DNA from: Candidatus Saccharimonadota bacterium
GTDB taxonomy: Bacteria > Patescibacteriota > Saccharimonadia > Saccharimonadales > Saccharimonadaceae
DNA length: 64,000 nucleotides
Direction of reading: 5' to 3'
Assembly (NCBI GenBank): GCA_017406905.1
Contig: JAFQXN010000006.1
Location: 1-64,000, forward strand
The notes beneath the pieces were generated by a model that did not search any database, was not told the DNA's origin, and saw nothing but the letters and a program-made list of their open reading frames with translations. Within the stretch, counting starts at the first letter, position 1. Every line of letters begins with the position of its first letter. Positions 4,111-23,399 of the stretch are shown piece after piece. The position numbers were made by a program, and so were the translations under genes.

Positions 4111-4146
4111 CAATAGCACTCTGACATATAGAGTGCTATTGTTTTA
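4111..4146. terminator. Strong intrinsic terminator, probably bidirectional
   Basis: A 12-bp perfect stem, CAATAGCACTCT (4111-4122) with AGAGTGCTATTG (4130-4141), is followed by TTTT. It lies between the KGG gene and the convergent metallopeptidase gene and overlaps the latter's last codon. Confidence 0.9.
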
Positions 4147-4539
4147 TAAATCACACTTTGGGCAACGATAAACACTATCCGGTGTCTGAAATCGCGTCAG
4201 CCCACAGATAGGGCAGCGCGATTTTTTATGCAGCCAATCCCTGTAAGTGTCTAATTGTTCCTGTATTAAATTCTCATCTACCTCCACCCTATATTTTGCA
4301 GCCAATTCACGAGCCCTCGCCCAAGCCTCACTTTCCATTCTAAGCCGCTCTACGTCCATTTTAAAGTCCTTATGACCTAAAATAGCATGAGATACCTCAT
4401 GGAGTGTAAAAAGCTCTGAAAACGGCTCTGGTGGCCCCAAAATGATAGTTTTTGGAGGCCGGAAAGCATATTTTTTACCATTCCGGAATTTTAACTCCGG
4501 AAAATCCAACTTTACTCTCTCTATAAAATCATCATCCAC
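4144..4539 (-). CDS. ImmA/IrrE-type zinc metallopeptidase with C-terminal zinc ribbon
   Basis: 131 aa, GTG start. HEVSHAILGH (about residues 47-56) is an HExxH zinc protease signature of the gluzincin/ImmA-IrrE kind. The C-terminus holds CPIC...CPKC (about 112-129), a small zinc ribbon. ImmA-like peptidases cleave repressors in mobile elements or stress responses. No repressor-like HTH gene is next to it, so the substrate is unknown. It lies 14 nt after the ROK kinase gene and is likely co-transcribed with it. No clear Shine-Dalgarno is seen, which leaves the start less certain. Confidence 0.75.
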   Translation of the reverse strand: MDDDFIERVKLDFPELKFRNGKKYAFRPPKTIILGPPEPFSELFTLHEVSHAILGHKDFKMDVERLRMESEAWARARELAAKYRVEVDENLIQEQLDTYRDWLHKKSRCPICGLTRFQTPDSVYRCPKCDL

Positions 4540-5327: not shown

Positions 5328-5470
5328 ACCCTCATCATACCCCAGCTCTGGACATTTTACAAGTTTTTTGATACAATTAGTAAAGTTTTAGGCTCATTCA
5401 TAAAATTCGTCATACAGATAAAACAATACGAATTTTTTGAATGAGTCTAAAGGAAGGAAACAATATAATT

Positions 5471-6535
5471 ATGGCAAATGCCAAAAAAATCACTATGGAC
5501 GAGCTCCTAGCGCAAAATGAGGAGTCGTTTAAGAAAGTTATTACTGGGGACACCATTAAGGGCACCGTTCTCTCAGTTAAAAAACACGAAATATTAATAG
5601 ATCTCGGCCCTCAAGGCGTAGGGTTAGTTCCGCGCAAAGAAGCTTCTTTTGCGCGCAATCTCAATATTGGCGACGAAGTTACCGCCTCAGTTATTGAATC
5701 GGAAATGAAAGATGGCTATGTACTCTTATCGTTGCGCAAAGCCGTCAAGGATAAAGGTTGGGATGAGATTCAGGCCAAGCTTGATAACAACGAGACAGTG
5801 GAAGTTACTCCATTTGATGCCAATAGGGGCGGTCTCCTTGTAGAATACGAAGGCATCCGTGGCTTCTTGCCGGTCTCTCAGCTCTCTGCGGAGCATTACC
5901 CTAGAGTGGGCTCATCAGATAAAGACGAAATTCTGCAACGCCTCAACTCTCTTGTGGGTAAGCCTATCAAAGCCCGCATTCTTGATGCCAACAAGAAAGA
6001 GAATAAGCTTATTTTCTCAGAGAAAGAAGCTATCAAAGATGGCCTAGCCGAGCGCTTCGCTGAGCTTAAAATTGGCGATACCGTCAAAGGTATCGTTACC
6101 GGCGTGGTGGACTTTGGCGTCTTCGTTAATGTAGACGGCATTGAAGGTCTAGTCCACATCTCTGAAATCTCATGGGAAAGAGTGAATAATCCATCAGATT
6201 ATGTCAAGGTCGGCGAAACTATTGAGGCAAAAATTATCGCCATTGATAAAGAACGTCTCTCGCTCTCTATGAAGCAACTCGTTGAAGATCCGTGGATTTC
6301 CGAGGTCGAAGGCCTCAAGAAAGGCTCCAAAGTTGAGGGCACAGTCACCAGGATTACTCCTTTCGGTGCATTTGTGCAAATTTCTCCAGCCGTTGAGGCA
6401 CTTGTACACGTATCAGAACTGGGAGAAGGCTCCGACGTGGATCCAGAAAAAATCTTCACTCTCAATGAGCGCAAAAGCTTCAAAGTTTTAGACATTGACA
6501 GGGAAGGTCGCAAGATTTCACTCTCAATAGCTTAA
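5471..6535 (+). CDS. rpsA: 30S ribosomal protein S1 (four S1 domains)
   Basis: 354 aa from the ATG at 5471. Four OB-fold S1 repeats are visible at about residues 20-95, 105-185, 205-275 and 290-354. The third has GVVDFGVFVNVDGIEGLVHISE and the fourth ITPFGAFVQISPAVEALVHVSE. Four domains is the short form, against six in E. coli. S1 helps unfold and load mRNA on the 30S subunit. An upstream in-frame ATG exists at 5441, but MANAKKITMDELL after AAGGAAGG looks like the true start. The gene stands alone with its own terminator. Confidence 0.93.
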   Translation: MANAKKITMDELLAQNEESFKKVITGDTIKGTVLSVKKHEILIDLGPQGVGLVPRKEASFARNLNIGDEVTASVIESEMKDGYVLLSLRKAVKDKGWDEIQAKLDNNETVEVTPFDANRGGLLVEYEGIRGFLPVSQLSAEHYPRVGSSDKDEILQRLNSLVGKPIKARILDANKKENKLIFSEKEAIKDGLAERFAELKIGDTVKGIVTGVVDFGVFVNVDGIEGLVHISEISWERVNNPSDYVKVGETIEAKIIAIDKERLSLSMKQLVEDPWISEVEGLKKGSKVEGTVTRITPFGAFVQISPAVEALVHVSELGEGSDVDPEKIFTLNERKSFKVLDIDREGRKISLSIA

Positions 6536-19709: not shown

Positions 19710-19738
19710 TTGCATTTTGCCAAAAAATATACTAAACT
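19710..19738 (+). promoter_or_regulatory. Promoter of the pre-rsmH structured RNA
   Basis: TTGCAT (19710-19715), 17-nt spacer, TAAACT (19733-19738). The predicted start, about 19745, falls in a small hairpin, TTAGCG (19743-19748) with CGCTAA (19764-19769). Confidence 0.55.
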
Positions 19739-19744
19739 AAAGTT

Positions 19745-20046
19745 AGCGAATAAATAATAAAAACGCTAAAACAAAACGTACCTTAAAAGAGTTTGAGATC
19801 GGCCAACTAGGAGTTTCGGCGCGCATTAAATTTCAAGCGAGATGCGAAAAAACAATCGTGCGCTCTTTCCTTAAACACACCTCCCAATAAAACTCTATAT
19901 GGTTAAACCAATACACAATAAGTCTCTCAACGGCTACGATATATGGTTAGTCTTAGATTAACCAAATCGTGGTAGATATATTGTGAACAAACAAAAATCA
20001 AAGCAGAAACAAAAACGCTGAAGTTTCTAGTTGAACGATCTCAAAC
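19745..20046 (+). ncRNA. Candidate structured RNA upstream of rsmH
   Basis: No ORF is supported. GTTTGAGATCGGCCAAC (19791-19807) pairs with GTTGAACGATCTCAAAC (20030-20046): 11 bp, a 2x2 internal loop and 4 bp, closing a 256-nt domain. Inside it CACAATA (19914-19920) pairs with TATTGTG (19979-19985). This encloses CTACGAT/ATCGTggTAG (19934-19940 with 19966-19975) and GGTTA/TAACC (19945-19949 with 19959-19963). GAGTTT (19811-19816) can pair with AAACTC (19890-19895). Signatures of RNase P RNA, tmRNA, SRP RNA and 6S were looked for and not found. It could be a stand-alone ncRNA, since rsmH has its own -10 box right after the 3' arm, or a mobile element with terminal inverted repeats. Confidence 0.6.
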
Positions 20047-20062
20047 GTTGTATAATAACAGT

Positions 20063-20935
20063 ATGGAGAAACTACATATCCCCGTATTATTATCTGAAGT
20101 CATGGCGGGCCTAAAGCCCAAGCAGGGTGAATCTTATCTGGATTTAACTGCTGGTTATGGAGGTCACGCTAAGGAGATTTTGGATGTAACACAGAATTAT
20201 AAAGATTCGGTTTTAGTTGATCGTGATGAATTCGCCGCCAAATACTTAGAGCGGGAATTTCCTCTCGAAATCAGCATCAAAAACACAGATTTTTATAATG
20301 CAGTGCTGCAGCTTTTTAAGTGTGGAAAGACTTTTGATATAATACTGGCAGACTTTGGAGTTTCTTCTCCGCAACTAGATATGGAAGATAGAGGCTTTTC
20401 GTTTAAAAACGACGGGCCACTAGATATGCGGATGGATAGACGGCAAGATTTAACGGCGGACGAAATAGTTAATCATTATAGCGAAAGGGAATTGGCAGAC
20501 ATTTTCACTACCTATGGCGAAGAAAGCCCAGGTCGTGCCAAAATGCTAGCCAGGGAAATAGTACATAGCCGTCCGATTCATAGCACTAAAGAATTAGCCG
20601 ATATTATCAAGGCTAAGTCTAAGCATAGTAAAATCCACCCCGCTACCAAGATTTTCCAAGCAATTCGTATCGTAGTGAATGACGAGCTTTCAGAGATTGA
20701 GAAAACTCTGCCGCTCTTGCCAAAGCTACTCAATAAAAACGGGCGCGTGGGAATCATTACTTTTCATAGTCTAGAGGATAGGCTGGTTAAGGATTACTTC
20801 AAATCGGCTTCTAGCTTGGGCGAAGAATCCGAATTACAAATCATCAACAAAAAGCCAATCACTGCGGAGAGTATGGAGTTGCTTATCAACCCGCGGGCTA
20901 GGAGCGCAAAACTCAGGCTAGCTAAGCGGAATTGA
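20063..20935 (+). CDS. rsmH: 16S rRNA (cytosine-1402-N4)-methyltransferase
   Basis: 290 aa. MEKLHIPVLLSEVMAGLKP is the family's N-terminus, followed by LDLTAGYGGHA (AdoMet loop, about residue 26), LADFGVSSPQLD (about 98) and GIITFHSLEDRLVKDYF near the C-terminus. It methylates C1402 in the ribosomal decoding centre. As in most bacteria it heads the division/cell-wall cluster, but mraZ is missing. TATAAT (20051-20056) ends 6 nt before the ATG, so it is leaderless; a TTG further up in frame is not used. Its base use differs from its neighbours: 120 nt at 20401-20520 hold 32 G and 20 C, whereas the + strand of nearby genes is C-rich. Confidence 0.95.
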   Translation: MEKLHIPVLLSEVMAGLKPKQGESYLDLTAGYGGHAKEILDVTQNYKDSVLVDRDEFAAKYLEREFPLEISIKNTDFYNAVLQLFKCGKTFDIILADFGVSSPQLDMEDRGFSFKNDGPLDMRMDRRQDLTADEIVNHYSERELADIFTTYGEESPGRAKMLAREIVHSRPIHSTKELADIIKAKSKHSKIHPATKIFQAIRIVVNDELSEIEKTLPLLPKLLNKNGRVGIITFHSLEDRLVKDYFKSASSLGEESELQIINKKPITAESMELLINPRARSAKLRLAKRN

Positions 20936-20967
20936 TAAAATAAAAACTAAACACAAAAGGAGGCAAA

Positions 20968-21033
20968 ATGCCAAAACAAATTTTAGTTGCGAACAAATCC
21001 CGCAAACAAACTGTTAAGGTAAATTTTCGCTAG
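20968..21033 (+). CDS. 21-codon leader-type ORF with strong ribosome site
   Basis: Encodes a 21-residue basic peptide that starts MPKQILVANKSRKQ and ends VNFR. AAAGGAGGCAAA just before the ATG is one of the best Shine-Dalgarno sites in the window. The TAG stop (21031-21033) lies inside the 5' strand of the first large hairpin downstream, so translation would affect folding of that RNA. This is the layout of an attenuator leader peptide, although no obvious run of one amino acid is present. It matches no known protein to my eye. Confidence 0.5.
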   Translation: MPKQILVANKSRKQTVKVNFR

Positions 21034-21201
21034 AGTCCCCCTTGCCGAGCGAAGCCACAGAGCTTCGCTCGGGTTCCGGGCTCTAGTGACTTGGGCCTAA
21101 AAAGGCTCACCAATTAGAGTTTCACAGAGAGTGTGAAGTGTATGACCTTCCCGGGAAAGTTCTTGCGAGTTACTTATAGCTCTGCTCGCAAAACTTCCCG
21201 G
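21030..21201 (+). ncRNA. Multi-hairpin RNA leader between rsmH and ftsL
   Basis: Four hairpins follow one another. H1: CTAGAG (21030-21035) with CTCTAG (21081-21086), enclosing a perfect 11-bp CCGAGCGAAGC (21045-21055) with GCTTCGCTCGG (21062-21072). H2: TTGG-GCCT (21091-21098) with AGGC...CCAA (21103-21113). H3: TTCACA (21121-21126) with TGTGAA (21132-21137). H4: a long stem from CCGGGAA (21151) to TTCCCGG (21201). CTCTAG can instead pair with TTAGAG (21114-21119), giving a competing fold. No U-run follows H4, so it is not a simple terminator. It could be a regulatory leader for ftsL-ftsI or a processed stable RNA. Confidence 0.65.
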
Positions 21202-21283
21202 ACTAAGACAAAAGACAAAACAAAATCAATCAATTGAAAATAAAAACAAATAAACAAAAACACAAGCGAGGAAATAACCAAAA

Positions 21284-21628
21284 ATGCGAGAACAATCATT
21301 TACTACCAGACGAACTGCGAGCGCCGGATTTGCTCGAAACCGCAATACCGTACGCCACACCAGAAGAAGTTTAGGCTCAATCTCTCAAATTGTCATCGTG
21401 GGTATGCTCACTCTAGTTTTTGGCCTTATTTATGTTGCCGAGGGCACTAAAGCTACCAGTTTCGATTACGAAATCTCTTCTGTTGAATCTGAAATTACTG
21501 AAATGAATTCCAAAAAAGACGATTTAGCGGTTGAAAAAGCACGTCTGACATCCGTCGCCACTGCCAAAACCAGCACTGTAGCAGCCGCGATGGAAGACGC
21601 TACGGTAACTGGCTATGCCACGGAATAA
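21284..21628 (+). CDS. ftsL: FtsL-like division protein
   Basis: 114 aa: basic cytoplasmic tail, one membrane segment (about residues 35-53), then a short coiled-coil-like extracellular part (SFDYEISSVESEITEMNSKKDDLAVEKARL, about 58-87). This topology and its place between rsmH and ftsI are typical of FtsL, which holds the FtsQLB complex and activates FtsWI. Sequence identity is low in this family, so the call rests mainly on context. It overlaps ftsI by 14 nt. GCGAGGAAAT lies before the ATG. Confidence 0.75.
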   Translation: MREQSFTTRRTASAGFARNRNTVRHTRRSLGSISQIVIVGMLTLVFGLIYVAEGTKATSFDYEISSVESEITEMNSKKDDLAVEKARLTSVATAKTSTVAAAMEDATVTGYATE

Positions 21629-23399
21629 CCAATACAATCAACCGGTGACTTCGAGTCAGATTTCAAGTCACCGCATTAAAATTCTAAAGAAAATCGTTTT
21701 TGTTGCTCTCGCAATTATTGCGGTGCGACTTTTTTTCATTCAAATTATCGAACATGATATGTGGGTAGCTAAAGCCGACGAACAGCACACCCTGTTAGAG
21801 ACCATCGTCGCCAAAAGAGGCGAAATATACATGATGGATGGTGATGAGCCGGCCGCAGTTGTCCTAAACCAAACTACCTATCAGATTATTATTGATCCTG
21901 CCATTACCGAAAAAGACGCAATCGAAAAAGCTCTCACAACTTACGCTAAAGATTATATCGTTGTTGATCTTGACGAAGTCTATGGTCGAGAAGGCCTCAG
22001 ATACTCCATCGTCGCCAAAAACGTTCCTCGCGAAATTGCCACCAAAATAGCCGAAGAGGATATTTCGGCGGTGTGGTTCCAAAAAAATAATCAGCGCGTT
22101 TATCCGGAAGGGGATTTGGCCTCTGGTCTGCTTGGCTTTGTTAACGCCGACGGCCTCGGCCAATACGGCGTCGAGGGCTCGCTCAATGGCTTACTTTCTG
22201 GCAAGGATGGCCTTCTCAAAGCCACAGCCGACGTCAATAACGTAGCTCTTTCTATCGGCAATGATAACGTCAAAATACCGGCAGAAGACGGTAAAAATAT
22301 AGTTCTCTCCGTTGACCGTGGTCTCGAAAAGGGAGTGGAGGAAAAAGCTATCGACGCCATCAATTCTACCGCCGCCACTAACGCCGCCGTCCTCATCATG
22401 AATCCCAACACTGGCGAGGTAATTGCTATGGCCAATTTGCCCAACTATAATCCAGATGATTATGGCAACGTTGCCGACGCATCTTCCTACGTAAATTACA
22501 CTACCGAAATCCCTTATGAACCAGCCTCAGTTTGTAAAAATTTCGCTTTTTCTGCTGCCATTAACGAAGGCGTAATGACTCCAGATACCACATATTTCAA
22601 CCAAGGCTACGAAATCATCGATGGCTGGAAAATTCAAAATGCCGAGCAGCGTTCCATGCTCTACGGCACTATCAATATGCGTACCGCTCTATATTGGTCG
22701 CTCAATACTGGTTCAATTTACGCGCTCAAACTCTTGGGCGGCAATTCCAATGAAATTACTCAGCAAGGTCGCGAAAAACTTTATGATTATTACTATAACA
22801 AATTCCGTTTAGGCCGTGCTACCGGCATCGAACTCATTGAAGCCGAAGGTTTCATCCCAGACCCCAATGAAGGCTGGGGCCGCGATTCCGTCTACGCCAA
22901 CATGACCTTTGGCCAGAATCTAGGTATCACCATGATTCAAACCGCCACCGCCTTTTCGGCAGTCGTAAACGGCGGTTTCTACCGAACTCCTACTATCGTT
23001 AAGGGCACGCTAGAGAATGGCGAAATCGTCAGTTCGGCAAAAAATGATGTCATCAATGAACAGATTCTTTCAGAAGAAACTAGCTCAGCGATGCGCAGTA
23101 TGCTTGTCAATAACCGAGATTACAAAGTCCGTGCGGGCATTGACCGCGCCGGCTATAGCATTGGTGGAAAATCCGGTACCGCCCAGGTTATTAAAGATGG
23201 TGCCTACGATGATACTATGAGCGAGACTGTAGGTACTTATATTGGCTTTGTAGGCACGGAAGGGGAGTTGCCAAAATACGTAATAATGGTTAAAATGTGG
23301 GGAGAGGGTCAATATTTGGATGGCGGAATAGCTAGTGGTTTATTTGATTCGCTCTCTAATTACCTCATTGATTATTTAAAAATAAAACCGAAAGCATAA
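21615..23399 (+). CDS. ftsI: Division transpeptidase FtsI (class B PBP)
   Basis: 594 aa. One N-terminal membrane segment (about residues 27-46), a PBP dimerisation region, then the transpeptidase domain. Active-site motifs are SVCK (about 305, nucleophile Ser in ASVCK), SLN (about 361) and KSGTA (about 519), the last in place of the common KTG. It cross-links septal peptidoglycan as partner of FtsW. It overlaps ftsL by 14 nt and mraY follows 7 nt later, so it is translationally coupled within the cluster. Confidence 0.95.
   Translation: MPRNNQYNQPVTSSQISSHRIKILKKIVFVALAIIAVRLFFIQIIEHDMWVAKADEQHTLLETIVAKRGEIYMMDGDEPAAVVLNQTTYQIIIDPAITEKDAIEKALTTYAKDYIVVDLDEVYGREGLRYSIVAKNVPREIATKIAEEDISAVWFQKNNQRVYPEGDLASGLLGFVNADGLGQYGVEGSLNGLLSGKDGLLKATADVNNVALSIGNDNVKIPAEDGKNIVLSVDRGLEKGVEEKAIDAINSTAATNAAVLIMNPNTGEVIAMANLPNYNPDDYGNVADASSYVNYTTEIPYEPASVCKNFAFSAAINEGVMTPDTTYFNQGYEIIDGWKIQNAEQRSMLYGTINMRTALYWSLNTGSIYALKLLGGNSNEITQQGREKLYDYYYNKFRLGRATGIELIEAEGFIPDPNEGWGRDSVYANMTFGQNLGITMIQTATAFSAVVNGGFYRTPTIVKGTLENGEIVSSAKNDVINEQILSEETSSAMRSMLVNNRDYKVRAGIDRAGYSIGGKSGTAQVIKDGAYDDTMSETVGTYIGFVGTEGELPKYVIMVKMWGEGQYLDGGIASGLFDSLSNYLIDYLKIKPKA

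Follow-up and report, generated by a model that had tools for sequence, protein, structure and literature searches.

A micropeptide gene and a conserved structured RNA ahead of ftsL in Saccharibacteria

The gap between rsmH and ftsL in a 585-kb Saccharibacteria genome (G000), read here within a stretch of 64,000 nucleotides (the window), holds a micro open reading frame (micro-ORF) of 21 codons followed by an RNA that is structured, conserved and matches no known family. Our leading reading, which we hold with about even confidence, is that the micro-ORF would be a true micropeptide gene of the division–wall cluster and the RNA a cis element acting post-transcriptionally on ftsL–ftsI. The best-conserved parts of the region are the peptide and an RNA core at 21086–21208, rather than the helix of a switch that an earlier note had proposed here, in which ribosomes on the ORF would choose between two competing pairings.

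A class-wide micro-ORF under selection

The micro-ORF and its Shine–Dalgarno (SD) sequence lie as follows.
20955..20963, + strand: SD of the micro-ORF, AAAAGGAGG, a 6-nucleotide match
20968..21033, + strand: micro-ORF of 21 codons, MPKQILVANKSRKQTVKVNFR, with ATG at 20968 and stop codon TAG at 21031–21033; position conserved class-wide, ratio of nonsynonymous to synonymous change (pN/pS) 0.23

The earlier note had pointed to a strong ribosome site and had proposed conservation of the peptide in relatives as a check; both were borne out. A 6-nucleotide match is the top class in the window, reached by 9 of its 46 genes, and AAAGGAGGC within the SD does not vary across 30 aligned relatives. Across 76 peptide variants from the genus and one sister genus, the micro-ORF is 20–24 codons long, its changes cluster at third codon positions, and pN/pS is 0.228 in frame compared with 1.39 and 2.75 in the other two frames. 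Sequences from other families (17) give 0.355, compared with values above 1 out of frame. What is kept despite codon changes is a pattern of hydrophobic residues alternating with basic ones, which would suit a two-strand hairpin; the C-terminal residues vary (R, C, V, F, Y, L, H, KK or KKSN). None of the 76 variants contains a run of one amino acid or of a regulatory codon, and comparison with protein families and solved structures returned no match other than chance hits to phage coat proteins (E > 1).

An ORF of 19–28 codons occupies the rsmH–ftsL slot in all 48 genomes of the Saccharibacteria class read outside the genus, which span over 20 families: 40 belong to the order and represent both other genera of the same family and about 20 families besides, 5 are further genomes of the family and 3 come from other orders of the class. 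Among the 40, the ORF was seen directly in 39, and the fortieth (L144) reads MSIEVQNKSRACKIQVRVVH on translation. The peptide is a variant of MPIQVKSSSRAYKVRVKVL in most families, and the three genomes beyond the order encode MTLVIKNRTPHARKVKVRVK, MSIKVQGVSRKVNITKRIRVKK and MAIKVKALGNSLRAQKVEVKVLSLVRA. The micro-ORF was found in none of eight genomes from other classes of the phylum, and a peptide profile search of 287 phylum genomes gave matches in its own order only, one per genome. On this distribution, the micro-ORF would be ancestral to the class Saccharimonadia. It shows the frame-specific purifying selection and conserved neighbourhood by which bacterial microprotein genes are recognized and, in its SD and its pN/pS of 0.23, the apparent signs of translation looked for in the leader ORF of an attenuator. 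Its sequence features mark the short ORF as a real coding sequence, under selection and with a strong initiation site.

A conserved RNA core between the micro-ORF and ftsL

The region 20950–21290 folds far better than its shuffles (z score −5.8), and the 150-nucleotide scan window at 21001 (z −6.9) ranks second of 1,277 plus-strand windows in a scan of the 64 kb. The core has the following parts.
21086..21208, + strand: conserved RNA core, covariance model R1 of 124 positions, identified by model matches and covariation
21092..21109, + strand: helix P2, 21092–21097 with 21104–21109; double changes in 6 of 6 pairs (86 sequences)
21115..21119, + strand: linker TAGAG, a possible but unproven pseudoknot with CTCT (21180–21183) in the P4 loop
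21121..21137, + strand: hairpin P3, TTCAC with GTGAA; double changes in 5 of 5 pairs (86 sequences)
21138..21151, + strand: near-invariant single-stranded GTGTATGACCTTCC, complementary to the micro-ORF SD; TGACCTTC in 90 of 94 genus sequences
21150..21202, + strand: long stem P4, 21150–21169 with 21184–21202; double changes in 13 of 14 pairs (86 sequences)
21172–21184, + strand: conserved loop ACTTATAGCTCTG within P4

In a DNA search, 85 of the 99 genus genomes matched the ORF–RNA element (E ≤ 0.001); relatives of G000 that carry a name are Candidatus Saccharibacteria, most of them from the ruminant gut and one an oral taxon. Of 393 genomes from the order, 84 matched the R1 model; 81 of these belong to the window's genus and the other 3 to a single sister genus. 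Each carries the core at a single locus, except for one genome with two equal-scoring copies on two contigs. A MAFFT alignment of 30 sequences, built blind to structure, left 95.6% of cells paired over P2, P3, P4 and the possible pseudoknot; with the same structure and the same 30 sequences, double changes occurred in 15 of 29 pairs, and none of 500 shuffles did as well. The alignment of 86 sequences to R1, which is biased towards the structure, showed compensatory double changes in 24 of 25 pairs (437 double-change cells; 0 of 500 shuffles). The pseudoknot between TAGAG and CTCT can pair in 99% of cases among the 30 sequences, with changes that are wobble-only, and some divergent members lack the CTCT side. 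We therefore set the AGAG/CTCT pairing aside: it is appealing in close relatives and is accompanied by no compensatory change.

The earlier note had recognized no known class in this RNA, and a comparison with the 4,227 families of Rfam 15 agrees, with no match over the gathering score nor any at E < 10. Three familiar identities were also discarded: the transfer-messenger RNA (tmRNA) of G000 sits on contig C4 and none matches at this locus, its RNase P RNA is located elsewhere, and no 6S RNA match occurs anywhere in the genome.

In the sister genus, one member (L106) carries three copies of TTTATTTTGACCGAT between micro-ORF and core, each of which can fold into a small hairpin with UUGACC in its loop. 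L108 and L113 likewise have UUGACC in the loop of P2, and UGACC is a candidate recognition motif.

Across the rest of the order, the slot between micro-ORF and ftsL holds one strong hairpin of unrelated sequence (z below −3 in 37 of 40 loci, mean −4.9), followed in these loci by an A-rich leader to ftsL. Only 3 of the 40 hairpin tails contain at least four T in ten nucleotides, all of them A/T-mixed. An SD precedes the ftsL start in only 4 of the 40 loci; the micro-ORF has a purine-rich SD.

Possible roles of the element

We propose that the RNA between micro-ORF and ftsL would set the translation, or the processing or stability, of the ftsL–ftsI part of the message. The cis element would be a single strong hairpin and A-rich leader in most of the order, and would have become a four-helix RNA with invariant single-stranded parts in the genus of the window and the one sister genus, where these unpaired parts most likely bind a protein, a part of the ribosome or, through UGACCUUCC (ACCUUCC), the SD of the micro-ORF. 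Micro-ORF and RNA would then probably tune the next division gene. The internal pattern of the peptide is fixed whereas its C-terminus and its distance from the RNA are unconstrained, which in our view makes a functional product more likely than a disposable leader.

Several points weigh against this proposal. The action of the RNA on ftsL is read from its position, and the function of the product from selection only, since the peptide matches no family or structure. Leader peptides may be under selection too, and one genome (L082) carries the RNA core but no recognizable micro-ORF.

A possible but doubtful alternative is that the structures serve only in mRNA processing or stability, as stems forming nuclease barriers that would split rsmH and the micro-ORF from the ftsL message, and that the micropeptide is unrelated to them. 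Consistent with this, a hairpin shape is kept across the order without its sequence, its 3′ flank is A-rich with no U-tract, and its distance from the stop codon is unconstrained; however, barriers of this kind leave the sequence-invariant unpaired elements of the genus unexplained.

We regard it as rather unlikely that the peptide is a cis leader whose nascent chain of 19–28 amino acids stalls or senses a signal, the stalled ribosome altering translation or decay of the ftsL mRNA. The strong SD, the conserved amino acids and the constant place before ftsL would suit such a leader, as would the length of the chain, which fits inside the ribosome exit tunnel. However, arrest peptides usually fix their C-terminal residues and spacing, and here the residues near the peptidyl-transferase centre vary, as does the spacing to the RNA.

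A more specific version of the micropeptide proposal, distinctly unlikely in our estimation, is that the basic, probably two-strand-hairpin peptide would work in division or ribosome control, with a feedback loop in the genus in which the invariant UGACCUUCC would pair with the micro-ORF's own SD and so link rsmH, the peptide and ftsL output. In the genus and sister genus, the duplex between SD and ACCUUCC spans 5–8 base pairs (median −5.6 kcal/mol), with a median rank in the best 5% of windows. Covariation cannot test this pairing because both strands are nearly invariant, and the hypothetical feedback is suggested by these energies.

That the core is a small-molecule riboswitch for ftsL, with the ORF incidental, seems improbable. 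Its compact multi-helix form, invariant unpaired nucleotides and possible pseudoknot would fit, but it serves one gene, at one locus per genome, in two genera only, and resembles no Rfam family even at E < 10. We saw no expression platform either, the ftsL SD lying about 60 nucleotides past P4 in mostly unpaired A-rich RNA.

The earlier note's switch relied on one further structure.
21027..21089, + strand: P1, seen in the fold and as repeats; outer helix 21027–21038 with 21078–21089, including the stop codon, and inner hairpin 21045–21055 with 21062–21072

Ribosomes covering CTAGAG (21030–21035) would leave CTCTAG (21081–21086) to pair with TTAGAG (21114–21119), deciding transcription into ftsL. 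These motifs, the long stem at 21150–21202 and the placement ahead of ftsL–ftsI are all as the note had described, and both pairings can form in the window. The stop codon lies in the 5′ arm of P1 in the window and its closest relatives, but many relatives have no P1 helix. Only close relatives preserve P1 through compensating changes (for example, CTAAAGTCC/GGATTTTGG), and the helix averages 6.2 base pairs in native sequences against 5.4 when arms are swapped between species. The alternative pairing fared worse: CTCTAG/TTAGAG reaches at least five base pairs in 3 of 30 relatives, with a mean of 3.33 in native sequences and 3.38 in swapped arms; it is an idiosyncrasy of this genome. Between stop codon and core lie 21 to 162 nucleotides, depending on the core carrier. 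No U-tract follows P4 in the window, and a terminator scan found no terminator between the ORF and ftsL, although the window does have a canonical intrinsic terminator with a U-run at about 4112–4147 (+ strand; fold z −9.2), in contrast to the hairpins that precede ftsL. With no U-tract after P4 in the window and A-rich flanks in other genera, premature termination by an intrinsic terminator is not how the element works; and as the pairing is not conserved, the spacing is free and no U-run follows, the switch is not what selection kept. Classical attenuation is therefore unlikely, and we consider the ribosome-dependent scheme, which also lacks a regulatory codon run in the peptide, highly improbable.

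Neighbouring features and known systems

The genes and leader around the element are as follows.
20063..20935, + strand: rsmH (mraW), 16S rRNA methyltransferase gene directly 5′ of the micro-ORF; PF01795, E = 3.8e-89
21203..21283, + strand: A-rich unstructured leader of ftsL, from its sequence, with no U-tract after P4
21265–21272, + strand: weak SD of ftsL, AGCGAGGA, a 4-nucleotide match
21284..21628, + strand: divergent ftsL, from a weak TIGR02209 (ftsL_broad) match below cut-off (E = 0.024) and its position in the cluster
21615–23399, + strand: ftsI, next after ftsL, from its position in the cluster

Directly 5′ of rsmH (19791–20046, + strand) lies another structured RNA, about 256 nucleotides long and unrelated to the first (fold z −7.0). 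Its closing helix, GTTTGAGATCG/CGATCTCAAAC, has 31-nucleotide arms that are 81% complementary. Relatives in the genus share about 80% identity with it and show compensatory changes (UA, CG and AU at one pair); ACACCTCCCAAT is invariant and CACAATAAGTCTCTCAACGG nearly so. Other genera of the family also carry CACCTCCCAA, 185–390 nucleotides 5′ of rsmH. Rfam contains no match to this RNA. A conserved promoter-like TTGCAT-17-TAAACT stands ahead of it (19710–19738, + strand), which probably puts the start of its transcription at about 19745. In genus relatives, TATAAT is conserved a few bases 5′ of the rsmH ATG (20052–20065, + strand), a position that suggests a leaderless rsmH transcript besides a longer one.

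Elsewhere in the window, 5351–5500 (+ strand) contains a strong unexplained fold (z −5.6), the 150-nucleotide scan window reaching the start of an ORF at 5441. The end of a 16S rRNA lies near the window start (1–155, + strand), and a 23S match is absent from the G000 assembly, which most likely reflects an assembly gap rather than biology.

As epibionts, Saccharibacteria divide on host bacteria; to our knowledge, the tuning of their division genes is poorly understood. A class-wide micro-gene and a new structured RNA at the entrance to ftsL–ftsI offer handles on this tuning, and the element is testable, since some strains of the class can be cultivated together with a host.

The locus resembles leader-peptide attenuators of the trp, ilv and tnaC type in having a short, well-initiated ORF and then a strong RNA structure before operon genes. 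Unlike them, it has no terminator U-tract, no conserved antiterminator pairing and no regulatory codon run, while its peptide keeps an alternating pattern class-wide and its spacing is free. With the cis-regulatory RNAs and riboswitches of Rfam it shares a covarying, multi-helix mRNA element with invariant unpaired nucleotides, but it belongs to none of the 4,227 families, occurs at a single locus, follows a conserved ORF and lies far from the ftsL start. Intercistronic stem-loops that stabilize mRNA likewise place a strong hairpin without a U-tract between cistrons, whereas here two genera add sequence-invariant unpaired elements to the stem. Bacterial microprotein genes are similar in their 19–28 codons, own SD, purifying selection and fixed neighbourhood; this one differs in having no known family, in its restriction to Saccharimonadia among the genomes examined and in the structured RNA after it. 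Searches of one literature library on a micro-ORF or RNA at this locus found nothing, an absence that is weak evidence. Structured leaders and microproteins are known kinds of element; what appears to be new is their joint occurrence, how widely it extends through the class and where it sits in the division cluster.
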